A model generated the notes under the pieces. It made no database searches. It saw only the letters and a list, made by a program, of their open reading frames with translations, and was not told where the DNA came from. A program made the position numbers and the translations under genes. From contig NZ_JACHWM010000006.1 in assembly GCF_014191355.1 (NCBI RefSeq), positions 186,001 through 250,000 on the forward strand: 64,000 nucleotides of DNA, given 5' to 3'. Source of the DNA: Methylobacterium sp. R2-1 (GTDB lineage: Bacteria; Pseudomonadota; Alphaproteobacteria; Rhizobiales; Beijerinckiaceae). This document shows, piece by piece, positions 22,262-55,703 of the stretch. How positions within the stretch are numbered: the first letter of the stretch is position 1; each line of letters starts with the position of its first letter.

Positions 22262-22300
22262 CGGGGAAGGCGTCTCCCGTGATCGGACGCTACCTATAGA

Positions 22301-22346: not shown

Positions 22347-22456
22347 AGACAGGGAGTATCGTCCGCCCCTGAACCGCGCCGGCCCTCTCGGGTTGGCCAA
22401 GCGCCCATATCCGCCCGGCCATCCCCTATCGACCTCACGCGAGCTTGCCCCGAACG

Positions 22457-23323: not shown

Positions 23324-23344
23324 GACGGGTTACCTCAGAGGAAT

Positions 23345-23390
23345 GCCGGGGCTCTGCCCCGGCACCCCGCCAAAGGGATGATCCCTTTGG
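23345..23390. repeat. Double-hairpin intergenic repeat
   Basis: Two adjacent perfect hairpins: GCCGGGGC-TCT-GCCCCGGC (23345-23363) and CCAAAGGGA-TGA-TCCCTTTGG (23370-23390). It lies between convergent genes, so it may end both transcripts. This double stem looks like a dispersed repeat of methylobacterial genomes, from memory. Confidence 0.75.
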
Positions 23391-23413
23391 AATCCCGCGA
23401 TGGCGAGAGCCGA

Positions 23414-27801: not shown

Positions 27802-28788
27802 TCAAGATCTTTCGTCGTCTTCGCCGCCGGCTTCGGCACTTGTCCGATAAGCATCGCGGATGTTTTTAAGTTCTTTGACTATGTCATCTGCGCTCATCGT
27901 GCTTGTATTCAATGCAAGTACCTGTCCGAGCGATGGTGCGTGCTTTGAAAGCTCATCTTTTGTTGGTTTGTGCCAGATCGGCAATAGGCGACCATTCCCG
28001 CTTGCTACCTTGTCCAGCAATCCATCTAATTCATATTGTGTTCACGGCTTTGAGAAGAACGAGGGTGATAGGACCGCAATGCCGAAATAAGAACTTGCCA
28101 AGCCAGCATCGATCTTCTGCCGGATGCTGTCGCCCCATTGCAGAGAAAACTTGTCGTACCAAACCTTGATGCCGGCATCGCGTGCCTTTGTAGCCAAATC
28201 TTTGACGAAGTCCTCTTTGTCCTCCCAAGCGTGAGAGATGAACACGTCATATGCCTCTTCCTCGCCGGGTGGGGCAGTAGGCTTGAAGGCCGGTGTGCTT
28301 GAGGCTTGCACTTCCAACTGCTCGGCTACCTGCGTTTCGAGGTCGCGAATCCTCTGCTGAAGGTTACTATTGACCCTTGCGGCAGCGGCTTCCCGCCGTT
28401 GCTGTTGCTGGTTTTCGGTCTTGCGCCGCGTTTCGTCATCAAGCCGCCGCCTGTCATCAGCCGCAGCGGTCTTCTTGCGCTCAGTCTCTTCGTCCTTGGC
28501 GATCTTCGCCTGCAACCGCGCAGCATCCTGTGTTTTCGACGCCGCTTGTGTCGCGTGCTTGGCTTGGTTTGCCTGAACTATCGTAAGGTTTCGCTCCTCG
28601 CGCTCTGCCGTGCTGTAGTATGATTTGGCAGAACTTGGCGAGCTCGCTTTTCGGGCAGACGCATTTGCGCTTGCTATTTTCTTCTGCGCATCGGCGGCGT
28701 TCTTCGCCTCCTTGGCTTCTTTGGTCCGAAGCTCGGATATCTCTTTGTTCAATCGCGCAAGGTTCGAGCGATCGGCCGCCAGTGACAT
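27802..28788 (-). pseudogene. TIR-domain protein with an N-terminal coiled coil, interrupted by one TGA
   Basis: The start at 28788 has a strong GGAGGG site. Residues 1-160 are a Lys/Glu/Ala/Gln-rich coiled coil. A TIR domain begins at YDVFISHAWEDKEDF (about 180-195) and continues through VWYDKFSL, GDSIRQKIDAGL and GIAVLSPSFFSKP. Codon 249 is TGA (28042-28044); past it the same frame goes on as TQYELDGLLDKV...LLPIWH to 27802. In this family SKP is followed by Trp, so TGG to TGA is the simplest change. The lost part includes the expected catalytic Glu (E253) of NAD-cleaving TIRs. Such proteins are often defence effectors. The result is either a dead gene, a truncated product or a read-through product; a sequencing error is possible. 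Confidence 0.85.
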
Positions 28789-28965
28789 GCATGCCCTCCG
28801 TAGTTCTGGCACATGCTGCGACAGGGATTGCGGTCGGCGCAAGACCCAACCCGCGCGGGAAGCTGGACGCGGATAGACCGGACATCCTTGGGCGGATGGA
28901 CAGGCCTCTTGTTAGTGTCCGGTCCGTCCGGTGTCCGGTCGGGCTGAGACAGGCGGATCGGGAGG

Positions 28966-33782: not shown

Positions 33783-35588
33783 TCACCGCACGGGCCGGAC
33801 GATCCGCGCCTCGCCGGGTGTGAGCGACATGCGCAGCGATCTCACCGGACCCGCCGGCAGTCCGCTGCCGACCACCGTGGCGAGCGTCTCCTCAACGGCG
33901 TGGGTTCCGGCGTGTCCGACGTTGGAGAAGGCCGTCTCGTAGATTGACCCGGCCTCGTTCAAGGTGGCATCGACGAGGATCGAGATATCGGCTGCGCTCG
34001 ACACGTCGGCGTTCAGGACGAGAACCACCTCCGTCTCGTTCAGGATCCGCGAAACTGCCAGGATGCCGGGGGCCCAGGCCGACAGACCGAACGTCACACG
34101 GTCGCCCGAGACCGGCCGGAAGTACTGGCGCCCATAGCGCAGCGCCGGATTCGCGGCGTGCACCAAGGCCAGCTCGCGCACCTTCCGATACAGGGCTGCG
34201 TCCTCGTCGAACGCCCCGGGCTTTCCCCAGAGCGCCTCGCGCACCGCTTGGTCGGAACTGCCGGCCCCGCAAAGCCCCTGCTCGGTACCATAATAGAGGC
34301 ATGGGATGCCTTGAAGGGCGAAAAGGCATGCCAGCCCGGCGACCAACTGGTCGTGGTAACGGTCGGGATTGGCGGGATCGGCGGGGAGGAAGCGGGCGGT
34401 CTGGTCATGATTGTCGAGGAAGGTCACGAAGTATCGGCTCGCCTCCCCATGCGAACTGATGATCCCTGCCTCGATCTTTTTTCGCAGCTCGTAGACCGCG
34501 GCTATGTCGGTCGGGGGCGCGAACCCCTTGACCACCCAGGGGAGCCGGAAGAAGAGCGGGAAGTCGAGGGCGGCGTCGACGCCCATCATGTCCCCGTCAT
34601 CGTTCGTCCGCCGGCCGACGAAACCCGCGATCTTCTCTTCGCCGTCATAGACCTCACCGAAGGTGAAGAAGTTGCGCTTGCCGATCTCGAGGGCGAACTC
34701 TCGCATCGCGTTCCCGAACGTGAGGGCAAAGTTGGGCTCGACGTACTTCAGGGTGTCGATGCGGAACCCGTCGATGTCCCATTTCGCGACCGCGTGCTGG
34801 TAACAGCGGATCAGCGCGGCTCGCACGTCGTGTCGGTCGCTGACGAACTCCTTGAGCGATTCGAAGTCGCCTCCCCCCTCGCCTCCCTTGCCCTTCCGGC
34901 GGAAAGCGGCGTTCGCGCGAAGCTCCGAGGGCCATACCGCGGCCTTCTCGCTGAGCCCGGCCTCGCCCGGGGCATCCGACCAGGCGGCCACCGGGCTGTT
35001 GTCCGCCCCGCGCCAGCGGATCGCGTAACTGGCGTCCCGCCAAGGCATCGTACTTCTCTCGACACCGTCGTCGCCCACGTAGGCGAAGACGTCGCCGGCG
35101 TGGTTCAGTACGATGTCCATGATCACGTGCATGCCACGGGCGTGGGCCTCGTCCACGAAACGGCGCAACTCGCCATCCGGATCTGCCTTGTCGGACGCGA
35201 ACCGGGGATCGACCTTGAGAAAGTGCTGGATGCCGTAGCCGTGATAGGTCCCGTCCTGGCCCTGGCAGTTCTGCAGGACGGGGCTGATCCAAATCGCGCC
35301 AACGCCTAGCCGCTGCAGGTAGCCCAGCCGCGTGCGCAGCCCCTCCAGGGTCCCGCCCTGGAAACGACTACAGGGACTGTTCCAGGGAAGTGCCGTCGGC
35401 GGCGAATCCGGATTGCTGAAGCGGTCGACCAGCGCGAAGTAGATCCAGCGGTCCCGCCAGTCTCCGGGCGACGGAAAGGGGCTTGGTACCGGCGTATCAA
35501 TATCGTCGACCCGGACCATGCGACTTGATGGGTTGTGTGCCGAGTCAAGGGCGGCCCGGACCGATTCAGAGTGGATGGAGGCGGCCAT
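33783..35588 (-). CDS. Glycoside hydrolase family 13 (alpha-amylase family) protein
   Basis: A 601-aa GH13 enzyme with all four conserved regions: DIVLNH (158-163), GFRIDTLKYV with nucleophile D278, GEVY with acid/base E312, and FLDNHDQ with D395. DRWIYFALVDRFSNPD and RTRLGYLQRLGVGAIWISPV mark the barrel start, and the last 90 residues are the beta-sandwich domain C. No signal peptide is present, so it should act on internal alpha-glucans or maltodextrins; exact bond specificity is not readable. CGGAGGGTTCG before the ATG is a strong ribosome-binding site. It has no metabolic neighbours, which is unusual for GH13 and fits acquisition with the island. Confidence 0.93.
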   Translation of the reverse strand: MAASIHSESVRAALDSAHNPSSRMVRVDDIDTPVPSPFPSPGDWRDRWIYFALVDRFSNPDSPPTALPWNSPCSRFQGGTLEGLRTRLGYLQRLGVGAIWISPVLQNCQGQDGTYHGYGIQHFLKVDPRFASDKADPDGELRRFVDEAHARGMHVIMDIVLNHAGDVFAYVGDDGVERSTMPWRDASYAIRWRGADNSPVAAWSDAPGEAGLSEKAAVWPSELRANAAFRRKGKGGEGGGDFESLKEFVSDRHDVRAALIRCYQHAVAKWDIDGFRIDTLKYVEPNFALTFGNAMREFALEIGKRNFFTFGEVYDGEEKIAGFVGRRTNDDGDMMGVDAALDFPLFFRLPWVVKGFAPPTDIAAVYELRKKIEAGIISSHGEASRYFVTFLDNHDQTARFLPADPANPDRYHDQLVAGLACLFALQGIPCLYYGTEQGLCGAGSSDQAVREALWGKPGAFDEDAALYRKVRELALVHAANPALRYGRQYFRPVSGDRVTFGLSAWAPGILAVSRILNETEVVLVLNADVSSAADISILVDATLNEAGSIYETAFSNVGHAGTHAVEETLATVVGSGLPAGPVRSLRMSLTPGEARIVRPVR

Positions 35589-39297: not shown

Positions 39298-40119
39298 GTG
39301 AGCTGGGCCATCGAGGAGAAGGGCTACTCGCAGCGTCGCGCCTGCGGGCTGATCGGGGTGGCCCCGAAGACGTACCGTTACGCCTCGACGCGGGGTGACG
39401 ATGCGGCCGTGCGGGTACGCCTGCGCAGCCTGGCCGGCGAGCGCCGCCGGTTCGGCTACCGGCGCCTGCTCATTCTGCTGCGGCGGGAGGGCCTCACGCT
39501 CAACCACAAGAAGCTGTTCCGGCTCTACCGAGAGGAACGGCTGTCAGTGCGCAGGCGGGGTGGGCGCAAGCGAGCCCTCAGCACGCGAGCGCCGGCCGCC
39601 GTGCCCCAGGAGCCGAACCAGCGCTGGAGCCTGGATTTCGTCTCCGACACGCTCGACGACGGACGCCGCTTCCGCATCCTCGTCGTGGTCGATGACTGCA
39701 CGCGGGAGTGCCTGGCGCTGGTGGTCGACACCTCGCTGTCCGGTCGGCGCGTCGCGCGCGAACTCGACCGGATCATCGTGGGCCGGGGCAAGCCGCTGAT
39801 GATCGTCTCGGACAACGGCACCGAGCTGACCTCGCACGCCATCCTGCACTGGCAGGAAGAGCGTGCGGTCGAGTGGCACTACATCGCGCCCGGCAAGCCG
39901 CAGCAGAACGGTTTTGTCGAGAGCTTGAACGGGCGCTTGCGCGACGAGTGCCTGAACGAGCATCTCTTCCGGAGCCTGCCGGCGGCCCGGACCCTCATCG
40001 AGGCGTGGCGGGTCGACTACAACACCTGCCGCCCTCACACGAGCCTCGGCGGGCTCACCCCGAACGCGTTTGCAACCCGGTCCAAACAGGACCAGAACCA
40101 GAACAGACTCTGGTTATGA
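39298..40119 (+). CDS. IS3-family transposase OrfB (DDE integrase core)
   Basis: A 273-aa frame annotated from GTG; in vivo probably made as an OrfAB fusion. An HTH_21 segment ([17 protein letters not shown]) leads to the DDE core: WSLDFVSD (first Asp), [10 protein letters not shown] (second Asp), and [20 protein letters not shown] (Glu). The spacing fits rve integrase folds. It ends [14 protein letters not shown], the usual family tail. No stop or frameshift is seen, so the catalytic core is intact. Confidence 0.93.
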
Positions 40120-40145
40120 ACGGGGGCAAACAGGGGGCAAGGTCA

Positions 40146-40149
40146 GGGG
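40146..40149 (+). repeat. Target-site duplication, right copy (GGGG)
   Basis: Directly follows the right inverted repeat; pairs with 38942-38945. Confidence 0.85.
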
Positions 40150-40321
40150 ACATGCATCTACTGCGACCACGTCGTGAAGCTTCGGGATGATGGTGTCGGG
40201 CTGGATGAGGCGAACATCCGCCTCCGGTGCGGCTCGTGCCACACCCTAAAGACGGTGGATGCCAGAGCGCGGCGGCTTGGACTGCGGTGAGGTCAGCCTC
40301 AGCTGACTGGATCGATATGAC

Positions 40322-40621
40322 TCAACCGCCGTGGAACATCTGCTCGAAGCGAGCGGGATCGCCAGCCAGCAGAACTGGTGCTGTTGGCAGGTCACGACGC
40401 GGGCAGGACACGTCACGACGCGGGCAGGACACAAAGCCGTAATAGGGTGTCAGCAGTGCCGGATCAGGAAGGGCAACCCATAAGCGGATCATCGGCCATT
40501 CCTCATCGACGCTGATGAGCATCATCTGTCGGCCTGGGTCGAACGAAGCAATTTGTTCGCGGAAGAGGAACGTGACGGAAGGGACATTGGCCCGGTCAAT
40601 CAACCTCGTTGCCCAAATCAT
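40322..40621 (-). CDS. Hypothetical protein, weakly supported
   Basis: A 99-aa frame starting MIWATRLIDRANVPSVTFLFREQIASFDPGRQ. The first 70 residues have natural composition. Two exact in-frame 21-bp tandem copies encode the repeated CPRRD units. No clear ribosome-binding site is present and no family is recognised. It sits among prophage remains and may be a decayed gene. The rest of the gap 40291-40868 holds nothing I can support. Confidence 0.35.
   Translation of the reverse strand: MIWATRLIDRANVPSVTFLFREQIASFDPGRQMMLISVDEEWPMIRLWVALPDPALLTPYYGFVSCPRRDVSCPRRDLPTAPVLLAGDPARFEQMFHGG
40391..40432. repeat. Two perfect tandem 21-bp repeats
   Basis: 40391-40411 and 40412-40432 are identical (each starts GTCACGACGCGGGC). 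Being 21 bp they preserve any reading frame across them. Confidence 0.9.
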
Positions 40622-40868
40622 AAGCGTCCGCCCGCTCCGCTGGCGTTCGCTGATTCAGCGACGATAGAACAATCGCACGGTGCGCATCCCTGCCACGAAG
40701 CCGCTTCGGAGTCAGTGCTGTTCGGACGCTGCGGCCGACGATGTCGGAACCAACCATCGAAGTAGGGGCCTCCGAACTCTACGAGGCTAGGGGGCCTGCA
40801 TCGCACAGGGTCCCATTCGCCGATTTTCTCTCGTTTTTTCAAAGGTGGGATTTTGGAGGCGGTTACGC

Positions 40869-41210
40869 ATGATCGAGAGAGCGATCCCGAAGGCCCCGCG
40901 GCACCTCGATAAGGCAACCCGTGCATGGTTCGATCACTTCGCCGGGCGCTTCGAGAAGTAGGAGCACCACGTCCGACTGCTCACTCTTGCGGGCGAAGCA
41001 TGGGATCGGAGAGTGCAGGCGCTCCAGGTACTTAGCGAGTAAGGCCTGACCTTCGTCGACAAGTACGATTGCTCCCGGCCGCGGCCTGAAGTGGCGATCG
41101 AGAGCGACAGCCGCATGGCCTTTGCCAAGTTGCTCAAGGAACTCGCCCTTGATGCCGCTCTGACTGTACGAGGCACAGGCCGCCTAGCTCAACCGGCACG
41201 GCCTGCTCAC
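40869..41210 (+). pseudogene. P27-family phage terminase small subunit, broken
   Basis: From ATG at 40869 one frame reads IPKAPRHLDKATRAWFDHFAGRFEK, TAG (40959), EHHVRLLTLAGEAWDRRVQALQVLSE, TAA (41040), GLTFVDKYDCSRPRPEVAIE, SDSRMAFAKLLKELALD. This is the complete core of P27-type terminase small subunits (HLD..TRAWW, LLTLAAEAWDR, RPRPEVAIERDSR.AFARLLRELDL). Such proteins recognise phage DNA for packaging. Two in-frame stops kill it. Together with the broken HNH gene 0.6 kb upstream it marks a lost prophage packaging module; no large terminase follows. Confidence 0.85.
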
Positions 41211-42056
41211 GCCCGGAGAGCGGCGGCACCTGTCCCCGAGCGCTTTTGCCCCAGAGCGGGCGCCTTCGAGTGCGGCAAAGGCTTAACTGCAAGCCGAGCA
41301 TCAGCGCTGTCGGCTCCAGTGGTCGAGATGTCTCTCCTTCCACCGCTCTCCACGCGGTAGCTCAGCTACCGGAGCGGACTTCGTTCGGCACGGCGATCGA
41401 ACCGATGCCTGCTAAGGCTCCTCAGGCGTCGCGGGCGGCACGAGCAGGCGCCGCGATGCCTGCCATCGAGGCCACGGACATCAGTCGGCGGGGCAAGCGG
41501 GCCTACAAGCTCCCGGCGCCGACGCGACAAGAACACGACATTGTCGCGTAAGTGTTTGTAATCGTTGGTTGTTCAACTAACTTGAATTGGCGGCATCCAG
41601 GCGTATGTGGCGACCTTGCCCGGGAGCGAGGTTGCCTCAGCGCGAAGGCAAGCTCGGCGAGGTCGCGCTGACCAAGTCCAGGCATCTGATCCCGGGGTCA
41701 GGAACCAGGGGCGGCGGCACCTGTCCGAAGCCGTGGATGTCCAGCGCTGAACCTGAGGAGGAAGGTCACGGAGAGCCTTGAGCGCCCCGGCGACCACCGA
41801 CGTAAGACGTTTTGTCCGGATCGTGGCGCGACTCGCTCTGACGCGTCGGTAACCATGGCGCCGCTTCACCCTGGCACCGATGGCACAATTCGGCCTCTGC
41901 CGCCGCCATTCCCCTTGTTCGATGAATATAAATCACTATCTGAATGAATCATTGACTCAATGACTGTGGCGATGCCCGCCGCTGAGCGAGGGGCGGCCGA
42001 AGCACTGTGACGTTCGGCTATCGCTCCGCGAGCATGTCCGAGGACGAGGAGGGACC
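41211..42056. other. Gap without a supported gene
   Basis: About 850 bp. Contains a perfect 9-bp stem (ACGCGACAA at 41522-41530 and TTGTCGCGT at 41541-41549). The stretch 41880-41960 is AT-richer (ATGAATATAAATCAC) and may hold the promoter of the helicase-nuclease operon. No gene is supported on either strand. Confidence 0.5.
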
Positions 42057-44738
42057 ATGCACTTGGTCTTCGGGATGGCGGCAGACCGTCGGTCTTACCC
42101 CGAGGCCCCGGGCACCGGCAGTGCCGTCGGCGCGGCGGTGGTCGGGCCAACCGGGCTCCTGGATTTGCTGGCGACGCAGATGGGCCTCACAAGGTCTGGC
42201 GTTCCGTCACTGCTCCGGGTCGCCGCATGGCAGTCCAAGATGGAGCATGCCGGCGTCGGCGCGCCACGTTTCTGGTCCGCGTCGTCGGCTGTCGATCCGT
42301 GGTCGACCGCCCGGCACCTGCTCGAATGGCGAGACTGCCTCGTCGAGGCCGGTTGGACACCGACCCGCGCTGGGATGGCCGCTTGGCCTTCACGAATGAA
42401 GGACCTTGCAGACGCCGAGCTGTCCGGGCCCGACCTTCCGCCTGGGCGAGCGGACCGCCTCAGGGAGATCATATGGGCGATAACCCGGGGTGAGCGCGTC
42501 GAGATCACGCTCGTCGAGTTGATCGAGGAGGAGATCTCGCTGCCGCCGGGATGGAGGCATCTGATGTCCGCCCTGCGTTCCGCGGGTGTCCCGGTGCATC
42601 CCGTCGAGGCGGTGCCGTGTCCCGCGGCCGGAACCGATCTCGCCATTCTCCAGCGGTTCCTGTCGGACGGACACCGGGAGTGCCTACGGGGGGACGGAAC
42701 GGTCGTGGAGATCGAAGCCGGGACAGCGCTACTGGCTGCAGAGTGCGTGGCCGAGTGGGTCGCCAGCGATCCGGACGCAGGACGCGGAACGGTCGTCGTG
42801 TCGGATGGCGACACCGCCCTGCTCGACCAAGCCTTGGCACGCCGCGGGCTGCCGGTTCTCGGCCTCTCGGCGCCCTCCCCCCTCCGAAGTGGGTTCCAGG
42901 TGATCGCACTGTGCTTCGCCGTGGTTTGGAAGCCCCTCGACCCCGAAAAGTTGCTCGAGTTCCTCACGCTGCCCCTTTCGCCGATCGCGCCTTGGGCGGC
43001 AGGCCACCTGGCAGCTGCGTTGCGTGAAGAGCCGGGAACCGGCGGCGCAGCTTGGCCCCGGGCCTGGGCCCTTATCGAGGCCGGGCTGCGTGAGAGAATG
43101 GAGGCCGATGAAGGCAGGGAACTGCTTGAGGAGTGGCAGTCTTGGGTGCAGGTCGGCCGCTTCGAGCGTGTGTCCGGCGTGCCAACGGACATCGCCCTCG
43201 CGATCTGCCGTCGGCTCGCCGGATGGGCGGCCGCGGCCAGCGAAGTAGAACATGGCCCTCTCCGACGCAGTCTCGTCGAAGTGACACGGAGCCTTGAAGC
43301 GGCGCTCGCCATGCTCGGTCAAGCAACCGTCGCGGGCCGCCAGATGGACCAGATGCTGTTCCAAGCCATTGAGGACCTGTCGGATTCCGCACGATGCGCC
43401 GAGGTGGGAGGCATCCGAGCGGTCGCCGACCCGGGAGCATTGTGGAGGCCTGCCAGCCGCGTGGTCTGGTGGCGGTTCGCGCGAGGGGGCAGCCGGCCAG
43501 CACCATGCCATTGGGACGAGGCCGAACTGGCGGCGCTCGCCGCGTCCGGCTGCCGTCCCGAGTCGCCAGTCGAGGCGGCCCGTCGTGACGAGATGCACTG
43601 GCGCTCGGTCGCTCTGCATGCCCGCCAAGCGCTGCTGTTCGTCAGGCCGGAAACCGAGTGTGGGGACGAGACGGCTCGCCACCCCTTCGCGCACCAGCTC
43701 GCCCCCCTCCTCACGACGCAGGTCGGGCAGCAGGCGATCCGTGTTCCCGCGGAGCGACTCCTCGCTCGCAGGCACGTGCGGATCGCTGGTCGCATGATCA
43801 CGCGAGCGGCCGCCGACGTGGTGGCGCTGCCGAAGGCCCAGGCGGTCTGGGAGCTGCCGCGGGCGCTCGTGGCCCGGACCCGGGGGCGATGCGAGAGCGC
43901 GACCTCGCTTGAGGACATGATAGGCTGCCAGTTCCGCTGGTTGTTGCGGCATGTCGTCGGCCTTCGGGGCAGCAGGGCCGGTCTTCCCGACGGCGAACGC
44001 CTGCTCGGCAACCTCGCGCATGAGCTGGCCCGTGCGGTCCTCGATCCCGGGACGATTCCGGATCCAGATTCGGTTCGAGCCCGTGCACGGGCGGAGTTCG
44101 ATGGATTAGTCGAGCGGACCGCCGCGCCTCTCCTGCTGCCCGGTCGAGCGGCGGAACTCGCCCACGCCCGGCAGCGCATGCCGGAGGCCCTGGCCGCCCT
44201 CGCCGCTCACCTCCAGTCCCGGGGTATGGCCATCGAGGGCACCGAGGTCGACTGCGCCGGTGACGCCGGGGGGTTTCGCCTGGTCGGCCGGGTCGACGTG
44301 GTCGTGCGTGATCCCGCTGGTGGCCGTGCAGCCGTGGATCTCAAGTGGTCGCGCAGCGCGGCGCGACGGCGGATCGAGCTTGCCGAGGGGCGCGCCATCC
44401 AGCTCGCGACCTACGGCCGTCTCCTGGGTTCCGCGGGGCGCGGGGCCCCGTCCGCGTATTTCCTGCTCCGGCAGCGCATCGCCCTGTCCACAAGCGGGTC
44501 GCCGCTCGCGACGGAGGAGGTGGCCGCACTCCGAGACCTTGACGGAACCTGGGAGGCGGTGGCCGCGGACTGGCGTGCGCTGATCGGCTTGGCCCGACAC
44601 GGGATCGGCCTCGCCAGCGGTCTCGGTGGCGGGGCGGACCTCGCCCTGGATCGGGTACTCGCCGGTGATCGGGACGCCTGCGTGTCCTGTGATCTGAGCA
44701 GGCTGTGCCGCATCCCCTCGAAAAGGACAGCCGCATGA
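42057..44738 (+). CDS. AddB-like nuclease with an iron-sulfur cysteine set
   Basis: An 893-aa protein. The first 600 residues are helical and helicase-like but lack a Walker A lysine motif, as in AddB/RexB. The C-terminal domain has a PD-(D/E)XK core (GRVDVVV D747, AVDLK D761 and K763, then IQLATY Q782). Four cysteines, C624 in MIGCQFRW and C875, C878, C884 in CVSCDLSRLC, have the spacing of the AddB 4Fe-4S cluster that staples this domain. GGAGGGACC precedes the ATG. The next gene starts inside its stop (ATGA). It should form one subunit of a two-gene helicase-nuclease that processes DNA ends. It is too divergent, and in the wrong context, to be the housekeeping addB. Confidence 0.85.
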   Translation: MHLVFGMAADRRSYPEAPGTGSAVGAAVVGPTGLLDLLATQMGLTRSGVPSLLRVAAWQSKMEHAGVGAPRFWSASSAVDPWSTARHLLEWRDCLVEAGWTPTRAGMAAWPSRMKDLADAELSGPDLPPGRADRLREIIWAITRGERVEITLVELIEEEISLPPGWRHLMSALRSAGVPVHPVEAVPCPAAGTDLAILQRFLSDGHRECLRGDGTVVEIEAGTALLAAECVAEWVASDPDAGRGTVVVSDGDTALLDQALARRGLPVLGLSAPSPLRSGFQVIALCFAVVWKPLDPEKLLEFLTLPLSPIAPWAAGHLAAALREEPGTGGAAWPRAWALIEAGLRERMEADEGRELLEEWQSWVQVGRFERVSGVPTDIALAICRRLAGWAAAASEVEHGPLRRSLVEVTRSLEAALAMLGQATVAGRQMDQMLFQAIEDLSDSARCAEVGGIRAVADPGALWRPASRVVWWRFARGGSRPAPCHWDEAELAALAASGCRPESPVEAARRDEMHWRSVALHARQALLFVRPETECGDETARHPFAHQLAPLLTTQVGQQAIRVPAERLLARRHVRIAGRMITRAAADVVALPKAQAVWELPRALVARTRGRCESATSLEDMIGCQFRWLLRHVVGLRGSRAGLPDGERLLGNLAHELARAVLDPGTIPDPDSVRARARAEFDGLVERTAAPLLLPGRAAELAHARQRMPEALAALAAHLQSRGMAIEGTEVDCAGDAGGFRLVGRVDVVVRDPAGGRAAVDLKWSRSAARRRIELAEGRAIQLATYGRLLGSAGRGAPSAYFLLRQRIALSTSGSPLATEEVAALRDLDGTWEAVAADWRALIGLARHGIGLASGLGGGADLALDRVLAGDRDACVSCDLSRLCRIPSKRTAA

Positions 44739-47700
44739 CCCAGTCGAGACCCCTCAACCGCGTCGACACCACGCTCGCGTCCGCCGGCACGGGCAAGACC
44801 ACGGCCCTTGTCCGCCAAATCACGGAGGCCATTGCCAGCGGCGTGGCGCCGGAACGGATCGTGGCCACCACGTTCACCCTCAAGTCCGCCGAGGAGCTCA
44901 TGGAGCGCGCCCGGGGCAGGTTGGTGGCGGACGGCATGGCCGAGCAAGCGGGCCGCCTGCTCGGCGCGCGGGTCGGAACGGTCAACGCGATCTGCGGGCA
45001 GCTGGTCTCCGAGTTCGCCTTCGAGGTTGGGCGGTCACCGGCTGGCGAGATCATCCCGGAGGAGTCCGTCCGCGCCACGTTCGCCATGGCCGCGGACCGG
45101 ACGATCGCCGTGCATGCCCCACGTCTAAACGCGCTGGCGGAGGCGTTCGGCCTGGCCGGAGGAAGGGTCGATTGGCGCAACGAGGTGCTGCGGATCGTCG
45201 AGCTCGCCCGCGCCTACGGGATCGACACCGATCATCTGAATGCCTCGGCCGAACGGTCCGCCGTTACCTTTATGGAGCTCCTTCCTCCGGCCTCGAACCG
45301 AAGCGAGGCGGAACTCGACGCCGCCCTCGGCGCGGCCGCGCGAGAGGCCGTTGCCTCCATCGCGGCGACGCCCCTACGCGCCGCCAGCCTTGATGCGGCG
45401 GAGGCGGCCAGGGAGGCCGTCCGGCGAAGCGACCGCGGCGAAATCATGCCATGGCCTCTGTGGGCGAAGCTCGCCGACCCGCGCGCGGCGCGCGAGGATG
45501 CACGGCTGTTCGACGGGTTGGCCTCCATCGCGTCGGCGCACTCCAGCCATCCCCGCCTTCGCCGTCAGGCCGCGGAGCTCATCGAAGGGACCTTCGCCTG
45601 CGCGGCGCAGGCGCTTACGGCGTACCAAGCCTACAAGGCCAGCCACGGGCTCATGGATTTCACCGACCAGGAGGCGCTGGCCCTGGAGATTCTCAGGCGA
45701 CCTGACACGCAGGCGCGGCTGCGAGAGCGAATCGAGATGGTGCTGGTCGACGAAGTCCAGGACTCGAGCCCGCTTCAGGTCGCCATATTCACCGAGTTGG
45801 CGCGGATCGCCTGCAGGAGCGTCTGGGTCGGGGACCCGAAGCAGGCGATCTACGGGTTTCGTGACACGGACGCGGCCCTGACCCTCGCGGCCTGCCGGGA
45901 GGCCGCCGCTGCGACGGGCGGCAACTGCGGATTCCTGTCGAGGTCGTGGCGTAGCCGCCCGGGTCTGTGCGCGTTCGTGAACGATGCCTTCTCGCCGGCC
46001 TTCGAGGCGATGGGCCTCCCGGCTTCCGGCACGCGCTTCTCCGGATGCACGCGCGACGACATCGGTCTGCCCACCGAGGCCGTCGCCGTGTGGTCGGTCA
46101 TCGGTCGAAACAGGTGCGAGCGAGCGGCAGGGCTGGCGGGGGGCATCGCCGCGGCGTTGGCGGACGCGGGCGCTTGGCGTGTTCGCGGCCGGAACGGGGG
46201 CCGAGACCTTCGGGCCGGGGACGTTGCCGTCCTGTGCCGCGGCAACGCGGAGGTCGAGCTGGTTGCATCGGCCTTAGCCGCGCTGCAGGTGCCTGTCGCC
46301 GTCGAACGCGGTGACCTCCTCGCGACACCGGAGGTGGAACTCTCGATGGCGGCGCTTCGCTGGGTCGCGGATGCCGATGACCATCTCGCCCTGGCCGAGA
46401 TGGCCCGGCTGCTTGGCGGCGCCGCGGCGACCTCGGACTGGCTCGCGGCGGTCGCGGAGGACGATCCCACCGCCCTGCGCGCGCTCGTGCCCTTCGCATC
46501 CGTCCTGGAGGATCTTCGTGCCGGGCACGCAACCATGACGCCCTGCGAGGTCGTGGACGCGCTCATCATGGCGACAGGCATCGTGGACATCGTTTGTCGC
46601 TGGGGCGACGCGCGAGCGCGTCTCCGTCATCTCGAGGCTTTTCGGGAGGTCCCGCGATCCTATGAGCGGGAGTGTTCGCGCCTCAGTTCCGCCGCGACCG
46701 TCGCAGGGTTGATCACCTGGGTGGCTGGTCGGACCCTCATGTGCCCGCGGAGCTTGGACCCGGACGCGGTTCAGGTGATGACATATCATCGGGCCAAGGG
46801 CCTGGAATGGCCGATGGTCATCATGACCGAACTGGAGCGAAGGGCGTCGCCGCGAACCTTCGGTGTGTGTGTAGAGTCCGAGCCACCGGTCGACTGGCGG
46901 GATCCACTCGCGAGCAGGTGGCTGCGCTTCTGGCCGTGGCCGTACGGCAGGCAGACGCGAGGCCTCCTGCTCGATGCGGCCGCTCGGGCCAGCGAGCCCG
47001 GGCGCCGGGCCGCCGCCACGGCCCGGGAGGAAGCCCTGCGCCTGCTCTACGTCGGGGCGACACGGGCACGGGATCACCTCGTCTTCGTCCGGCAAGGCTC
47101 CCGGCCCGCCAACTGGCTATCGGTGCTGGATACGACCGACCGACCTCATCTCTCGCTTCCTGACCGGGACGGCGATCCCATCCGTGCCGGCTTCCGCCGG
47201 CACCCCGCGCGGCGGCTGACGGTCCGGGCGGTCGCACGTCCCGCGGCATCGGCGCCGGAGGTGCCGTTCCTGGCGCCGGAACGTGCGCGCAGACGGTTGC
47301 GACCGTTGCGCGTGAGACCCAGCGCGGCGACGTCGGCGGCCCACTACACCGTCGTGGCCACGCATGAGCTGGGCGGGCGCGTTAAGGCAGGCGGGGAAGC
47401 TTCCCCGGACCTCCTTGGGCAGGCGGTCCACGCCTTCCTGGCAGCCGATCTCATCGGGGCCAACCCCGCCGCGAGGCGCCAGCGGGCGCGCATGGTCGTC
47501 GAACGCTGGAGCGTCGCCGGCTCGTTGTGTCCGGACGGCTTGGTGTCGGCTGCCGACCGTCTGTGGACCTTCCTCGCGGATCGCTTCCCGCAGGCCAACA
47601 TCCGGCGCGAGGTGCCGGTTCACGCGGAGCTTGGCGGACGGGTCATCGCCGGACGCGTCGACGTCCTGGTCGACGATGGCAGGCGTTTCGCTGTCATCGA

Positions 47701-47941
47701 CCACAAGAGCCTTCCCGACCTGCAAGGCCTCTGGGAGAGGAAGGCGGCGGGTTACGGCTCGCAGCTGCGTCTGTATTCCTGTGCCGTGACCCGGACGACA
47801 GGCATGGAATGCATCGGGCTGTTCGTGCACCTGCCCTTCGCCGGCGCGATCCTGGAACTTCGTTGCGGGACTGCGGCCCGCACGGCAGGGCTTCATCGCG
47901 GAGCGTCCGCGTACGGCCGGCGCCGAGGAGCGGTACCGTAA
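44735..47941 (+). CDS. AddA-like UvrD-type helicase-nuclease
   Basis: A 1068-aa protein. Superfamily 1 motifs in order: ASAGTGKTTALV (K21), ATTFTLKSAEEL, LVDEVQDSSPLQ, VWVGDPKQAIYGFRDTD, VMTYHRAKGLEWP and EEALRLLYVGATRARDHLVF, so the motor looks active. The last 110 residues carry a second PD-(D/E)XK core (GRVDVLV D976, VIDHK D989 and K991, then GSQLRLY Q1010). This is the layout of AddA. The ATG overlaps the stop of the AddB-like gene by 4 bp, so the subunits are translationally coupled. The pair could act in recombination, plasmid or ICE processing, or degradation of foreign DNA. The TAA is followed in frame by an acetyltransferase fragment. Confidence 0.9.
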   Translation: MTQSRPLNRVDTTLASAGTGKTTALVRQITEAIASGVAPERIVATTFTLKSAEELMERARGRLVADGMAEQAGRLLGARVGTVNAICGQLVSEFAFEVGRSPAGEIIPEESVRATFAMAADRTIAVHAPRLNALAEAFGLAGGRVDWRNEVLRIVELARAYGIDTDHLNASAERSAVTFMELLPPASNRSEAELDAALGAAAREAVASIAATPLRAASLDAAEAAREAVRRSDRGEIMPWPLWAKLADPRAAREDARLFDGLASIASAHSSHPRLRRQAAELIEGTFACAAQALTAYQAYKASHGLMDFTDQEALALEILRRPDTQARLRERIEMVLVDEVQDSSPLQVAIFTELARIACRSVWVGDPKQAIYGFRDTDAALTLAACREAAAATGGNCGFLSRSWRSRPGLCAFVNDAFSPAFEAMGLPASGTRFSGCTRDDIGLPTEAVAVWSVIGRNRCERAAGLAGGIAAALADAGAWRVRGRNGGRDLRAGDVAVLCRGNAEVELVASALAALQVPVAVERGDLLATPEVELSMAALRWVADADDHLALAEMARLLGGAAATSDWLAAVAEDDPTALRALVPFASVLEDLRAGHATMTPCEVVDALIMATGIVDIVCRWGDARARLRHLEAFREVPRSYERECSRLSSAATVAGLITWVAGRTLMCPRSLDPDAVQVMTYHRAKGLEWPMVIMTELERRASPRTFGVCVESEPPVDWRDPLASRWLRFWPWPYGRQTRGLLLDAAARASEPGRRAAATAREEALRLLYVGATRARDHLVFVRQGSRPANWLSVLDTTDRPHLSLPDRDGDPIRAGFRRHPARRLTVRAVARPAASAPEVPFLAPERARRRLRPLRVRPSAATSAAHYTVVATHELGGRVKAGGEASPDLLGQAVHAFLAADLIGANPAARRQRARMVVERWSVAGSLCPDGLVSAADRLWTFLADRFPQANIRREVPVHAELGGRVIAGRVDVLVDDGRRFAVIDHKSLPDLQGLWERKAAGYGSQLRLYSCAVTRTTGMECIGLFVHLPFAGAILELRCGTAARTAGLHRGASAYGRRRGAVP

Positions 47942-48241
47942 GGGCGCACGGTTCACATCCTGCCCGCTTGTCACCGGCAGGGAGGCGGGCGGGCACTCGT
48001 CGGATGTGCCCGGAAATGGGCCTCCGAGCGCAGCATCCAATTACTCTCGGTAAAGACGGTCGCGGACAGCCTGTCGCATCCGGCCTATGCTGGAACTCGG
48101 GCGTTCTATCGCCGGATCGGCTTCGAACTGTTCGAGGAGCTTCGCGGACACTGGAGAGCCCGGACGTCGTGCGCGCTTCTGGTGCTCCCCGTCGGCGGGA
48201 AGGTCCAAGGCGTTCTAGCTCGTGCCACTCTCGCAATCTAG
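47942..48241 (+). pseudogene. GNAT acetyltransferase, C-terminal fragment
   Basis: In frame with the preceding helicase and directly after its TAA: VHILPACHRQGGGRALVGCARKWASE, SIQLLSVKTVADS, PAYAGTRAFYRRIGFELFEEL and RTSCALLVLPV. The RxGxGRAL loop is the acetyl-CoA pyrophosphate-binding motif (one Gly shifted), and ATRAFYxRxGF is the usual GNAT end. The N-terminal half and start codon are missing, so it is a fragment. It could only be made by read-through of the helicase stop. Confidence 0.8.
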
Positions 48242-48508
48242 GACGGCGAGGTGACGCCTGAAGCGGCCGGCGCGAGGTCTGCGCCGCGACAATCCGGACC
48301 ATGGTCGGCAGCGGATCAAACGTCTGCTTGGAGTTGATCGGAGATCCGGAGAGGGGCATCACAAATGGCGTGCCGTGATCACTTCGACCTCACCGCTCGA
48401 CTTAGATCTTGAATTGCTCTGTCAGGATCGGGGCGGCGGAGACAGGAGAACGAGAAGCTGCCTGTAAAGATTGGCAGTACGTGTAAAGAAATATTGAATT
48501 ATTGGAAG
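48242..48508. other. Gap without a supported gene
   Basis: About 270 bp. The part 48470-48530 is AT-rich (AAATATTGAATTATTGG), otherwise nothing is recognised. Confidence 0.45.
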
Positions 48509-48883
48509 CTAATATTGGAATTTAGAAGAACCGCGGTCTGCGGTCCTTGAGGCAAGGCTCTCTCTCGCTAGCAGGTTTGTCCAACGTTCTAGCCGTTTGA
48601 CGAGGCGTTTTTCTTGTCTTGTCCTCTGATGACGGTGGCGCGGTCGATCATGAGAGGGCACAGCCGGGTTGTAGATGAAGCCGTCGGCAGCCGAGATCTG
48701 GAAGCCGTACTTCGTAAGATCAGCAAAGGGTTGGAAGGTGCCGTTGAATCCGAGATCTCCCAGGCTGAACCCCTGATCTGCACTGTCGCGATGGTAGGCC
48801 CAGTCGGCAAGGCCTGTATATTGGGAAGGTTGCTCGGCTGGAATGCTCGCGCCTGATGCAGACGTATCGGTGACGTTGCTCAT
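48509..48883 (-). CDS. Hypothetical protein, downstream of a small partner gene
   Basis: A 124-aa frame with ATG at 48883. The first 75 residues (YTGLADWAYHRDSADQGFSLGDLGFNGTFQPFADLTKYGFQISAADGFIYN) have good globular composition. The last 45 are basic (RPRHRHQRTRQEKRLVKRL) and may come from a frameshift near 48660. It starts 7 bp after the stop of the same-strand upstream gene, so they are probably one operon. Family not recognised. Confidence 0.55.
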   Translation of the reverse strand: MSNVTDTSASGASIPAEQPSQYTGLADWAYHRDSADQGFSLGDLGFNGTFQPFADLTKYGFQISAADGFIYNPAVPSHDRPRHRHQRTRQEKRLVKRLERWTNLLARESLASRTADRGSSKFQY

Positions 48884-48889
48884 TCGATT

Positions 48890-49198
48890 TCATGCCCCAG
48901 TCTGAGGATAGAAGAAGAAGGCGTATTCATCGCGTTCGAAGACGATCCAAGAGGCGTCGCTGCAGCCGGAGATCCGGACCCGAACCTCCATCCCGCCAAG
49001 GCGACATTTCCGGTGCCCTTCACTGCCGAACCGCTCCGGAGGGCGCTTCAGGAGGGCTTGGACGAGTTCGCTCGGCGCATCGCTGTCACAAAAAACGAAG
49101 CCTCGCAGCGAAGCCGTCTCGTCGACGAGAGCCTCATGTGCATAGGCTTCGGCGCGGCTCGGATCGCGCTCCAGCCCCTGCAGTGCTTCGTTCGACAC
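48890..49198 (-). CDS. Hypothetical protein
   Basis: A 102-aa frame with GTG start (SNEALQGLERDPSRAEAYAHEALVDETASLRGFVFCDSDAPSELVQALL). It ends with strands MEVRVRISGCSDASWIVFERDEYAFFFYPQ. A mix of helices then beta strands suggests a small folded protein. It shares a short spacing with the downstream gene. Not recognised; the start could also be internal. Confidence 0.55.
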   Translation of the reverse strand: MSNEALQGLERDPSRAEAYAHEALVDETASLRGFVFCDSDAPSELVQALLKRPPERFGSEGHRKCRLGGMEVRVRISGCSDASWIVFERDEYAFFFYPQTGA

Positions 49199-49630
49199 GA
49201 CAGGGAATACATCTTCGGGGTTGCTCCGCTGACGGCGTCCACTGGGGCTTGAAGCTCTCGAGTTCGATCTGCAGCGCTCCTCCGCGCATACGACCCAAAT
49301 CCCGGACGATCTGCGTTCTCAAACGGCCTCGGTCGAAAGCGGCGGTTCAGGTTCCACGAGCCTAAGGTCGGCTGTCGGCGCGATCAGTCTCTCCGGATTT
49401 CCGCTTCTAAGCCGGTCCGGTCTGACAACGACCCCGCGCCTGGGCTCGCTCGGAAAATCCGCCGCGCATCCATGCAGTAGCGTGGGACGCCGATCACCAT
49501 CCTTCCAGGGTGCTACGGCTTCTACGGCTTCTGCTGAGTGCCCGTGCGACAACGGGCGAGGGTAGGTAGCCGGAACTGCCTCCGTCTGGCTTTTGTTGGA
49601 CTGGAGTATCGCATTTGCGAAGGGGACTTC

Positions 49631-50566: not shown

Positions 50567-52313
50567 TCACAGCCGGAACAAGATCAGGATGGCTTGCGGC
50601 GCGGCATTGGCGATGTTGAGCGCGTGTGTGGCCAGATCCCGTTGGGCCTGTAGCGCCCTCAGCGTGCTCGACTCCGCCTCGATGTCCGCGTCGACCAGGG
50701 CGCCGATGGCACGTTCGTTGGTCTTGACGAGCGCGTTGAGGAACATCCTCTGTCCCTCGACGAGGATCCTGCCGGCGCCGAGCCGCGCACCGCTGTCGGT
50801 CGCGCGCCCGATAACCGCCTCGACGTCCCGGATCACCGCTTGGAGCGTCACGTCGCCCGACGCGCCGCTCAGGCCGGACACGTCGAGCTTGGCGACCGCG
50901 TAGCCGGAGGCGCCGGGAGTGTCGAGCAGCCCGCGCGACGAAGCCGCCTGCGTGCCGTCGCGGCCGGAGGCGGCCCTTGGCATCCCGTCCTGTACATACT
51001 CGTTTCCCACCGCGGATTACCCTAGGGTGAAGCCGAAGGCCGCGACGTCGGGGCCGCTCACCGTGACGACGGCCGATGGGCCCGCTGCCCTACCGGTCGC
51101 GACGAAGACGTTCCCACCCATCCCACCCCCGATGTTCATCCAGAAGTCGGCGTCCACCCGGCGCCGTTCATGCCGGAACTTGGAAGACATCTCGTCGAAC
51201 GTGACGGAGGTCAGGTCGGCCGGCGGCGGTTGGCTGCTCGCGTCGAAGGTGTAGGTGACCGACGCGCTGCCGTCGCCCAGCCTGATGGACTTCGTGTTCG
51301 AGCCCGATAGATCGACATTTCGATAGAGATCCGTCGCGAAGGCCAAGGGGCTGAACGACTGCCTTCTATCGACCGAGACGATGGTGAGGTCGGCTGCCGT
51401 TTAGCCCGGAGACGGTACGAGGTGATGCAGGGGAGCGACGCGGAGGCCCCTGTCGCCGTCGTTGCGAAGCTCAGGCATCCGTCCGCCGTCAGAAACGCGG
51501 TAACGTCACCGGACAGCGTCGGCGACTGGGCGATCTCGGCGTTGATGGCGTCCGTCAGCTCGGCCGGCGTGACCGCGGACACGTCACCGGCCCGGGAGGC
51601 GAGGTTCGTCGCGTTCAGCCTGATGACGTCCGAGCCGTTTCCCGTCGATAGGCTCAAGCCGACTTCCATGGCGGTTGCGAAGTCGGCGCGTCCGTTGGCA
51701 GCGAAGGCGCTCGTCATCGCCATGGGGATGTCACCGGACAGCGTTGCCGGCGTCGGTGCGGTGCGGATGACCGTTGGGCTGGCATCGTAGAACTTTAGCG
51801 CCTCGATTTCGACCGGAAAGGTCGAAAAGGTTGCTGCGTCCGAGGGGCCGCGGGAGAGCCCCGCGACGATGTCGTCTCTCGACCGGTAGGTGGCGGACGC
51901 GCAATCGACCGAGAGACAGTTCCGGATGGCCGGCACGGAGCGTGGGCGGTCGCTCACATCCGGTTCTGGATCGCGGCGACCTCGGTCAGAATCTTCGCCC
52001 GGCCGATGCCGGGCGCAAAGGCGTTCTGGAGCGTCGCGCGCAGTGCCCGGAGATCGGAGAGCACGCTGTCGAGGCCGGCATAGGCCACATCGAACGCCGC
52101 GGCACCCAAGCCAAGCGTATCGCCCGCCGCGCGCAGCGAGGCATTGTCGGCCCGGACCGCGGTCGCGATCGACCAGTAGGCCGCGCCGTCCGAGGCAGCC
52201 GAGATCCTCTGGCCCATCGCCAGGCGCCTGCCGGTCGTGGCGAGTTGCGCCTTGATGCCCCTGAGCGTCCCGAGAGCCGTCAGAGCAGCGGTGTTCGTCG
52301 AGAGGCTCGTCAC
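50567..52313 (-). pseudogene. Flagellin gene with two frameshifts and one stop
   Basis: Start GTG at 52313. Segment 1 (52313-51954) is a typical flagellin D0/D1 N-terminus: SLSTNTAALTALGTLRGIK, RISAASDGAAYWSIAT, LGLGAAAFDVAYAGL. Segment 2, another frame, covers about 51945-51400 (LSVDCASATYRSRDDIVAGLSRG...). Segment 3, a third frame, covers 51405-51017 (LAFATDLYRNVDLSGSNTKSIRLGDG) and hits TAA (51017). Segment 4, the same frame, ends in the flagellin C-terminus: GAGRILVEGQRMFLNALV, IGALVDADIEAESSTLRALQ, HALNIANAAPQAILILF. The rebuilt protein is about 580 aa, larger than the intact flagellin at 54405. Confidence 0.85.
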
Positions 52314-54404: not shown

Positions 54405-55703
54405 TCAACGCAGCAACTGGAGGACGCCCTGGTTGGCCTGGTTCGCGAGCGAGAGCGCCGACACGCCGAGCGACTGCCGGGTCGACAGCGCCTGCGAGTT
54501 CGCCGCCTCCGCGTTCATGTCCGCGTTGACGAGGTTGGCTGCGCCGGTGTCGAGGATGTTGCCGACCTGCTTCGTGAAGTCCTGACGCACCTGCACGTTC
54601 GAGAGGTTCGATCCGAAGCCCGACTGCAGGTTCTTCAGGCTGGCCAGCGCCGTCTTCAGGGTGTCCTGCATCGCCGCCAGACCCTTGTCAGTCTGGATGT
54701 TGAACTCGCCGGTACCCGCTGTGCCGTTCACCGCCTTGTCGACACCCAGGCTGTCCGCGGTGAGCTTGCGCCCTGCTATCGTCAGCTTCGACTGATCGGA
54801 GCCGGTCTTCTCGTTGAAGATCACACTCAGCGCATCGCCGCCGAGCAGGTTGGTGCCGTTGAAGCCGGAATCCTTGGCGATCTGGTCGATCTGGGTGCGC
54901 AGTTCGTTGAACTGTGTCGCCAGCGCGGTGCGTGCCGCCGAGGTCTTGTCGTTGGTCAGGCCGGTCGTGGCGGCGGCAACCGTCAGGTTGAGTGCAGTGT
55001 TTCCGCCTCCTGCTGTCGCTGCCGTGAGTGCCGCGGCGGCATCCGTACCGCCGCCGACGCCGACCTTGAGCGTGTCGGAGTTGCCGGTCACCGTGAGCTT
55101 GCCAGCATCGTCGACCGCGGCTGTGGCAAGGCCCGAAGCGTTGATGGCGTCGACGAGGTCACCGACCGTCGATGTCGGGGTCAGCCTGCGGGTGAAGCTG
55201 TTCTCCCCGTCCGTGAGGGTAACGGCGAGGGCGGTCCCGGCGATGCCGAGCGAACCGGCCGCCGTCTCGCTCGGGCGTGCGGCAGCGCCCCCGAGCGCCA
55301 TGTTCATCGCGGTGGTGCGCAGGCTGGTACCGGTCGCCTTCGCCTCGGCGGCGGTGGCGAGCGCCGAGCCGGTTACCGTCGGACGGTTGGCGGCGGCATC
55401 CGATTGCGCCTGCGCGATTGTCGATTGCAGCGACTTCACGAGATCGGAAATCTTCGAGGCTCCGGTGTTGGCGGCCTGGATGGTCTGGATGCCGTTGGAG
55501 ATGCCGTCGAGCAGGCTCGACAGGGCGGCGGAACGGTCGGAGAGACCCTGGGCGGTGAAGTAGTTCACCGGGTTGTCGAGGGCGCTGTTGACCTTCTTGC
55601 CGGTGGCGAGCCGGGCTTGGTTGGTCGCCGCGAGGGCGGCGGTGTCCTGCAGGGAGAGCAGGTTCTGCCGCGTGGCGGCGGACAGGGTGATGGGCGAGGA
55701 CAC
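54405..55703 (-). CDS. Flagellin
   Basis: A 432-aa flagellin. The N-terminal D0/D1 region (LSAATRQNLLSLQDTAALAATNQARLATGKKVNSALDNPVNYFTAQGLSDRSAALSSLLDGI) and the C-terminal region (FTKQVGNILDTGAANLVNADMNAEAANSQALSTRQSLGVSALSLANQANQGVLQLLR) form the coiled-coil core of the filament. The middle (about 150-320, Ala/Thr/Gly-rich) is the exposed variable part. It would be exported by the flagellar type III apparatus and polymerise on the cell surface. The start is GTG with GAAGG upstream. A decayed, unlike flagellin gene lies 2 kb away. No other flagellar gene is in the window, so it depends on genes elsewhere. Confidence 0.93.
   Translation of the reverse strand: MSSPITLSAATRQNLLSLQDTAALAATNQARLATGKKVNSALDNPVNYFTAQGLSDRSAALSSLLDGISNGIQTIQAANTGASKISDLVKSLQSTIAQAQSDAAANRPTVTGSALATAAEAKATGTSLRTTAMNMALGGAAARPSETAAGSLGIAGTALAVTLTDGENSFTRRLTPTSTVGDLVDAINASGLATAAVDDAGKLTVTGNSDTLKVGVGGGTDAAAALTAATAGGGNTALNLTVAAATTGLTNDKTSAARTALATQFNELRTQIDQIAKDSGFNGTNLLGGDALSVIFNEKTGSDQSKLTIAGRKLTADSLGVDKAVNGTAGTGEFNIQTDKGLAAMQDTLKTALASLKNLQSGFGSNLSNVQVRQDFTKQVGNILDTGAANLVNADMNAEAANSQALSTRQSLGVSALSLANQANQGVLQLLR

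Follow-up and report, generated by a model that had tools for sequence, protein, structure and literature searches.

A diverged AddAB-like gene pair in a variable region of the Methylobacterium sp. R2-1 chromosome and its possible role as mobile defence cargo

Why should a bacterium that has its own addAB genes carry a further gene pair built on the same plan? The question is raised by a stretch of 64,000 nucleotides from Methylobacterium sp. R2-1 (assembly GCF_014191355.1, contig NZ_JACHWM010000006.1, positions 186,001 to 250,000; hereafter the window), in which two overlapping genes encode an AddB-like and an AddA-like protein. Judged by sequence, the pair is a separate, anciently diverged family and not a second copy of AddAB, and its accessory status is well supported. 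As to its function, we consider it moderately probable that the pair encodes a mobile AddAB/AdnAB-type helicase with two nucleases, which would destroy invading linear DNA and be carried as accessory defence cargo; the defence step is one that we infer. No description of the pair was found in the open-access literature searched. The two genes and their parts, where SF1 stands for helicase superfamily 1, aa for amino acids and Fe-S for iron-sulfur, are as follows.

42057..44738, + strand: AddB-like gene, 893 aa, with a motif-less, degenerate SF1 helicase-like N-terminal part, a C-terminal PD-(D/E)XK nuclease and four Fe-S-type cysteines
43896..44711, + strand: PD-(D/E)XK nuclease domain of the AddB-like protein, residues 614-885, with catalytic D747, D761 and K763 and also H655, E730, Q782 and Y786
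43926..43928, + strand: C624, first Fe-S-type cysteine of the AddB-like protein, from the alignment rows
44679..44708, + strand: C875, C878 and C884, C-terminal Fe-S-type cysteines of the AddB-like protein, from the alignment rows
44735..44738, + strand: ATGA overlap of the AddB-like stop and the AddA-like start (translational coupling)
44735..47941, + strand: AddA-like gene, 1068 aa, with its ATG at 44735, an SF1A (UvrD-type) helicase and a C-terminal PD-(D/E)XK nuclease
44774..45886, + strand: UvrD-type helicase N-terminal core of the AddA-like protein, residues 14-384, with Walker A K21, DEVQD 339-343 and GDPKQ 366-370, from Pfam and invariant columns
47384..47803, + strand: PD-(D/E)XK nuclease domain of the AddA-like protein, residues 884-1023, with D976, D989, K991, Q1010 and Y1014

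Most of what the initial annotation had said of the proteins themselves was borne out. There are two intact genes (42057-44738 and 44735-47941) with a 4-bp ATGA overlap, and the nuclease residues D747/D761/K763 and D976/D989/K991 and the cysteines C624/C875/C878/C884 are where it had placed them. Its claim of intact SF1 helicase motifs in the AddA-like protein agrees with the alignment, in which seven motif residues are identical in 47 of 47 rows. The nuclease residues of the same protein are identical in 46 of the 47 rows, the single exception being a decayed copy (L020), and in the AddB-like protein H655, E730, D747, D761, K763, Q782 and Y786 are identical in all 52 aligned rows, the window row counted. 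The single Pfam domain above the cut-off in the AddB-like protein is PDDEXK_1 (PF12705, residues 614-885, E = 1.1e-19). The AddA-like protein matches UvrD-helicase (PF00580, 8.5e-38), UvrD_C (PF13361) and PDDEXK_1 (PF12705, residues 884-1023, 1.5e-9). The window copy ends in a C-terminal tail of about 25 residues that is unconserved. At third codon positions the GC content of both genes is high (0.78 and 0.82), as it is in coding genes.

The four cysteines vary as a set. All four are present in 46 of the 52 AddB-like rows and none in five (L017, L019, L049, L112 and L116), and the remaining row (L041) runs into an assembly gap. Four of the five cysteine-less loci have helicases that cluster as one group in the helicase tree. 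The set resembles the Fe-S cysteines that known AddB carries. Within the first 80 aligned residues, none of the 52 AddB-like rows (0/52) shows a Walker A pattern, as is expected for a dead helicase-like scaffold. The close junction of the two genes recurs as well: at 42 junctions (the window and 41 loci) the in-frame start of the second gene lies between a 13-nucleotide overlap with the first stop of the first gene and a 2-nucleotide gap after it, the starts being read by eye from the printed junctions where none was annotated. An apparent gene fusion in Beijerinckia sp. L45 (L041), a single frame of 1986 aa, was discounted, as the join crosses a 10-N assembly gap.

How far do the names AddA and AddB hold? 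For the AddA-like family the best sequence match in the Protein Data Bank (PDB) is AddA itself (3u44_A, 2.7e-56). Its AlphaFold model has a predicted local distance difference test score (pLDDT) of 85.2 and, with VIA-align, comes closest to UvrD (Z 31.8) and AddA 4ceh_A (Z 31.7 over 841 residues including the nuclease); the root-mean-square deviation to the latter is 16.4 Å, so the domains are placed differently in the model. The protein has what defines the AddA subunit in the AddAB superfamily, SF1A motifs and a C-terminal RecB-type PD-(D/E)XK nuclease.

The AddB assignment rests on the predicted structure and not on the sequence, a correction to the initial annotation. A search of NCBIfam at E up to 1 gives no match for the AddB-like protein, and the profile of this protein, run against the PDB at E up to 1, finds no AddB and only a weak Cas4 match (4ic1). 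In hhalign it meets the AddB of its own genome over the nuclease part only (167 columns, probability 6.5, E = 0.0057) and does not align with E. coli RecC, the own-genome AddB and the RecC each entering as a single sequence. The AlphaFold model (pLDDT 84.7) finds AddB 4cej_B as its best PDB match with Foldseek (E = 3.5e-18, template modelling score 0.55 by query length). VIA-align likewise puts 4cej_B first (Z 16.8, 7.3 Å over 796 residues), tied with AdnA 9np6_A (Z 16.7, 8.3 Å over 562 residues) and followed by RecC 8b1t_C (Z 15.8). A helicase-like fold without motifs, as predicted by the model, a PD-(D/E)XK nuclease and Fe-S-type cysteines are the features that define the AddB subunit, and the protein combines them.

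The host genome (5.83 Mb, 52 contigs) has a further gene pair with the same nuclease domains on contig C16, which is its own addAB. The housekeeping AddA encoded there scores 1123 bits with the alphaproteobacterial AddA model. The window AddA-like protein scores 141 bits with this model (addA_alphas, TIGR02784), far below the equivalog cut-off of 860.75, and so does not qualify as a housekeeping AddA. In a helicase tree of 61 sequences, 41 accessory AddA-like rows form one group with a Shimodaira-Hasegawa-like approximate likelihood ratio test (SH-aLRT) value of 99, and 16 housekeeping AddAs form another (SH-aLRT 100), leaving the AddA-like proteins outside the housekeeping clade; the window protein pairs with the copy of a genus-mate (SH-aLRT 100). 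The tree is from a quick search with no bootstrap, and its long branches (such as RecB and L049) are unsure. The subunits of the window pair, at 893 and 1068 aa, are smaller than those of its housekeeping counterpart (1046 and 1154 aa). In the own housekeeping AddB (L005:2650-5790) the final 119 residues are free of cysteine, so that one cell holds two AddB-type proteins which differ in their C-terminal Fe-S-type cysteines.

The same coexistence is seen in other hosts. Of the 29 genomes hosting the pair that were searched with the alphaproteobacterial AddA model, 26 contain a housekeeping AddA that passes the cut-off, and the other three are a genome with a partial AddA gene (761 bits), one with AddA split over several contigs and one Bacteroidota genome. 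This coexistence suggests that the accessory pair does another job. The initial annotation had spoken of an accessory copy; accessory it appears to be, with the own addAB on C16, but it is no second copy of AddAB.

Several known systems invite comparison. The pair is like AddAB (RexAB) in having two subunits that each carry a PD-(D/E)XK nuclease, C-terminal to an SF1A motor in one and joined to a dead helicase-like part in the other. It is unlike housekeeping AddAB in forming a separate clade with smaller subunits and in being patchy, mobile and often in defence islands. Mycobacterial AdnAB has two nuclease domains per heterodimer and a recognisable helicase core in both subunits. The pair shares the two nuclease domains, and its AddB-like model ties with AdnA 9np6_A, but the AddB-like subunit shows no Walker A pattern. 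Gabija (GajA-GajB) also joins a nuclease and a UvrD-type helicase in two genes, and the AddA-like protein matches GajB models; here, however, the helicase has a nuclease of its own and an AddB-like partner. An identity with Gabija was rejected, as the partner gene is PDDEXK_1, finds no PADLOC model at E up to 1 and is not an OLD-type GajA. Passages of PMC12407980 relate GajA to the OLD nuclease and describe Gabija as targeting linear DNA devoid of RecBCD.

Two further systems are compared here by description. Parts of a 2017 Cas4 phylogenomics study (PMC5704561) describe UvrD-Cas4 fusions and linked pairs (pfam12705) with possible repair or defence roles. Like the pair, these bring together an SF1 helicase and a RecB-family nuclease, joined or linked; the cases described there are a Cas4-like nuclease fused to UvrD, or linked Cas4-like genes. 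A deep-clustering survey, in the portion of PMC10910872 that deals with it, has an AddB-like PD-(D/E)XK protein whose helicase part is inactivated, accompanied by repeats like those of clustered regularly interspaced short palindromic repeats (CRISPR). The present pair differs in that no such repeat array was found in window positions 39500-49500, nor in the (mainly upstream) stretches searched at six relatives.

If the pair is accessory, how does it travel? Within the genus it occurs in 2 of 37 genomes, and the second copy (G030) is broken. At least 3 of 397 genomes in the order sample matched, one over the nuclease only, and at least 36 of 398 in the phylum sample matched at E 0.001, at least 12 of them full length; at most two candidates per genome were scored in these two samples, which makes the counts lower bounds. 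On plasmids the pair was found in 26 of 72,556 records, 17 of them conjugative, from Rhizobium, Sinorhizobium, Agrobacterium, Variovorax, Methylocystis, Bradyrhizobium, Bosea and Lysinibacillus. A scan of named genomes gave 28 loci, including one from a spirochaete and one from an Alistipes metagenome-assembled genome; one of the 28 (L027) is a plasmid that is also in the plasmid list (H11). Relatives also occur in Bacillota, Spirochaetota and Bacteroidota. The spread pattern is read as horizontal transfer of a two-gene unit; the pair recurs as a unit on plasmids and in islands, mostly beside defence genes. Together with the tree position and the own addAB, this recurrence means that none of the three findings named in the initial annotation as grounds for refuting it was made.

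Two other views of this distribution were rejected. A housekeeping role in the small-genome family f81 does not fit, as 11 of 61 sampled genomes matched, 6 of the 61 at full length; two further f81 genomes outside this sample carry the pair. A phage origin was also considered. The viral-contig scans, which were pattern-based so that distant relatives could escape, found no relative, and PHROGs gave the AddA-like protein a helicase match and a weak exonuclease match and the AddB-like protein none. The sole phage-labelled record with the pair is MT835507 (L019, "Bacteriophage sp."). Among ten open reading frames (ORFs) scanned around the pair there, type I restriction-modification, SF2 helicase, PLD, AAA, WYL and GIY-YIG genes were found and no phage structural family, and the record is read as a bacterial or mobile-element defence region.

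The neighbours of the pair on plasmids carry the argument for defence. At 16 of 17 annotated plasmid loci there is at least one defence-type gene within about 10 kb; the gene types near the pair are restriction-modification, toxin-antitoxin, AbiE, cyclic oligonucleotide-based antiphage signalling system (CBASS), ThiF/multiubiquitin/Mov34, PLD, SIR2, WYL or similar. The sole locus without one, that of Bradyrhizobium septentrionale (L129), has a broken pair. On ten plasmids, a hand count of defence-type genes within 10 kb gave 44 by the pair and 3 in control stretches of the same plasmids: CP121661 4/0, CP041239 6/0, CP049209 2/0, CP017148 8/0, CP092969 3/2, CP021832 4/0, CP017243 7/0, CP050107 3/0, CP098802 4/0 and CP056050 3/1 (pair/control). 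Control stretches were taken for 10 of the 17 annotated loci, nine of them roughly antipodal and one a quarter turn off. The count used product-name keywords chosen after the flanks of the pair had been seen and an incomplete annotation, the plasmids are related and not independent, and it covers plasmid loci only. The flanking genes differ from locus to locus among the annotated plasmids.

A WYL gene lies directly upstream of the pair in five loci (L012, L013, L017, L025 and L120) and about 3 kb upstream in L019. A conserved 62-aa ORF was observed between the divergent WYL regulator and the pair in L012, L013, L025 and L120, and L112 has a weaker relative of it. Near three loci there are further long SF1 helicases of 1129-1147 aa, which form their own group in the tree (L013:1867-5292, L035:18456-21899 and L051:3929-7318); the one in L013 adjoins multiubiquitin and ThiF genes.

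Where does the window copy itself reside? The left flank at 20163-24514 is collinear in four genus relatives (G018, G005, G009 and G016) and, in a 5.4-Mb contig, 89% identical over its full length. The sequence right of an integrase gene is not collinear in genus relatives. A collinear left flank followed by non-collinear sequence beyond the integrase places the pair in a chromosomal variable region. A matching integrase piece was seen about 3 and 9 kb past the left anchor in two of the three relatives inspected, with nothing else there in common. The right edge was not found: about 19 kb past the left anchor in three relatives matched the integrase region only, and collinearity with relatives is also absent from the DNA that adjoins the window on its right. 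In the plasmid collection the best match of an 8.9-kb query is M. bullatum (80.8% over 48% of the query), a DNA similarity that suggests Methylobacterium. Both sides of the pair are gene-poor, and the other features of the region are these.

25136-26548: integrase gene, left of the pair
28042-28842, - strand: TIR-domain protein, matching positions 1-216 of the 282 in PADLOC PDC-S66 and 1-65 of the 122 in TIR_2
31009-33024, - strand: long open gene for a HATPase_c protein of 671 aa, left of the pair
33783-35588, - strand: long open gene for an alpha-amylase-family protein of 601 aa, left of the pair
39298-40119: transposase gene with rve domains, left of the pair
50567-51010, - strand: C-terminal piece of a flagellin, in the variable region
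54405-55703, - strand: gene with both the N-terminal and the C-terminal flagellin domain, in the variable region

By its domain matches, the TIR protein is a defence candidate without its C-terminal end. The single tRNA call of ARAGORN (Leu, gag; 39516-39617, - strand) lies inside the transposase gene and is probably false. These features modify the picture drawn in the initial annotation. The genomic island it proposed is reasonable from the collinear left flank and the non-collinear remainder, but no right end was found for it. Of the prophage and insertion-sequence remains it placed on the left, the transposase gene with its rve domains stands, while the prophage part is confirmed only as the integrase gene. 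It had called most neighbours decayed; the HATPase and amylase genes, both with long open frames, show that not all of them are.

Is the pair under selection? Among close copies, dN/dS (the ratio of nonsynonymous to synonymous substitution rates) ranges over 0.11-0.23 in the AddB-like gene and over 0.08-0.18 in the AddA-like gene, and these values (0.08-0.23 in all) indicate purifying selection among the copies. The copies close enough for dS belong to two rhizobial groups and to one pair from Bosea; no pair below the dS limit was obtained for L033 and L044, and one pair was identical. The window copy was left out, its nearest relative being about 50% identical. The initial annotation had held that completeness amid decayed neighbours implies selection; for the window copy this is not shown, since that relative is too distant for dS, and broken. 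Several copies are decayed. The same-genus relative G030 has a stop in gene 1 and has lost the nuclease end of gene 2, which are the defects of the decayed copy L020 (one stop in gene 1). Gene 2 is split in two frames in L027/L124 and gene 1 in L043, and both genes are fragmented in L129. These broken or split copies suggest frequent loss.

In the reading that we prefer, each gene would supply one subunit of a two-nuclease helicase of the AddAB/AdnAB type, with a working SF1A motor in the AddA-like subunit only and the AddB-like subunit as a dead helicase-like scaffold. The overlapping genes speak only indirectly for such a heterodimer. The polarity of SF1A motors is 3'-5' for the class. The complex would load on free double-stranded DNA ends, the AddA-like motor would unwind the duplex, and the two nucleases would cut both strands, presumably one each. 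The targets would be linear invading DNA, either phage genomes on injection or fragments left by neighbouring restriction systems, and the enzyme would act when phage inhibitors block the housekeeping AddAB or Chi calls it off. The pair would be kept as accessory defence cargo on conjugative plasmids and chromosomal islands. In the relevant passages of PMC4824097 the dead motor of AddB and RecC serves Chi reading, and according to parts of PMC9836394 phage inhibitors can be specific, gp5.9 blocking RecBCD and not B. subtilis AddAB. The Chi sequence that PMC3925955 gives for AddAB is AGCGG, which may or may not apply in Alphaproteobacteria.

Several observations weigh against a defence role. 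We infer this role from the company of defence genes on plasmids, and such proximity is circumstantial. On two Bradyrhizobium plasmids a topoisomerase gene lies by the pair, with SbcD-like repair genes in one and no defence-type gene counted, a setting that suits repair or maintenance. PADLOC, searched at E up to 1, gives nothing for the AddB-like protein, and the AddA-like protein matches generic UvrD-type models only (e.g. GajB, 3.4e-27). Among ten window neighbours run against PADLOC, the single clear defence candidate is the truncated TIR protein, which lies about 13 kb from the pair, and neither two WYL proteins nor the 62-aa ORF have a relative that was found in the window. The decayed copies count on the same side. 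A stronger form of the defence reading, in which the pair is a self-contained two-gene immune system, a plasmid-spread AddAB-type enzyme outside recombination that serves from Alphaproteobacteria to Bacteroidota as a Chi-independent, inhibitor-insensitive spare end-degrader, is in our view a tentative proposal and less likely to be right than wrong.

The alternative that survives best, though we hold it to be rather unlikely, is an enzyme of element maintenance or repair, which would process ends for the element or the stressed host, the defence neighbours being merely co-collected in cargo regions. AddAB-type enzymes are repair enzymes (as passages of PMC4824097 have it), the pair sits on 26 plasmid records, and its Bradyrhizobium neighbours include topoisomerase and SbcD-like genes. 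However, a housekeeping AddA that passes the cut-off is present in 26 of 29 hosts, and the plasmid neighbours are rich in restriction, toxin-antitoxin, CBASS, ThiF/multiubiquitin, AbiE and PLD genes. On one pair-bearing plasmid a repair stretch of Ku, LigD and ImuA type lies far from the pair. The pair is also chromosomal, as in the window, whose left flank is collinear with the 5.4-Mb contig.

Less likely still, the pair could be the effector of a larger WYL-regulated multi-gene defence system, whose sensor would be variable or unrecognised nearby. The WYL gene and the 62-aa ORF just upstream in four loci, and the WYL genes by L017 and L019, would fit this. But there is no fixed third gene on the other annotated plasmids, the flanks change by locus, and neither upstream gene has a relative found in the window. 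That the window copy is a non-functional relic, complete only through recent arrival, we take to be very improbable: the only same-genus relative found, G030, is broken in both genes, and the unconserved tail and gene-poor surroundings would suit a relic, but the frames are full-length, all catalytic residues are intact and the third positions are GC-rich. An ordinary duplicate of the housekeeping addAB, which the shared domain content of each subunit and the presence of the host's own genes might suggest, is scarcely credible against separate tree clades, 141 bits for a cut-off of 861, an AddB-like profile that meets the own AddB over the nuclease part only and without confidence, and an own AddB with no cysteine near its end.

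What would a defence enzyme of this kind mean? Passages of PMC9836394 call RecBCD a hub of phage immunity that phages inhibit, and passages of PMC12407980 have Gabija acting where RecBCD is kept off DNA. A mobile, diverged AddAB-like pair, found beside the housekeeping enzyme and in defence islands, would be a natural spare for such a disabled hub. It would make testable whether inhibitor-resistant, Chi-free versions of these enzymes are kept purely for immunity. Since 5 of the 52 AddB-like rows lack all four cysteines, the family also lends itself to comparing what Chi and the Fe-S cluster contribute.

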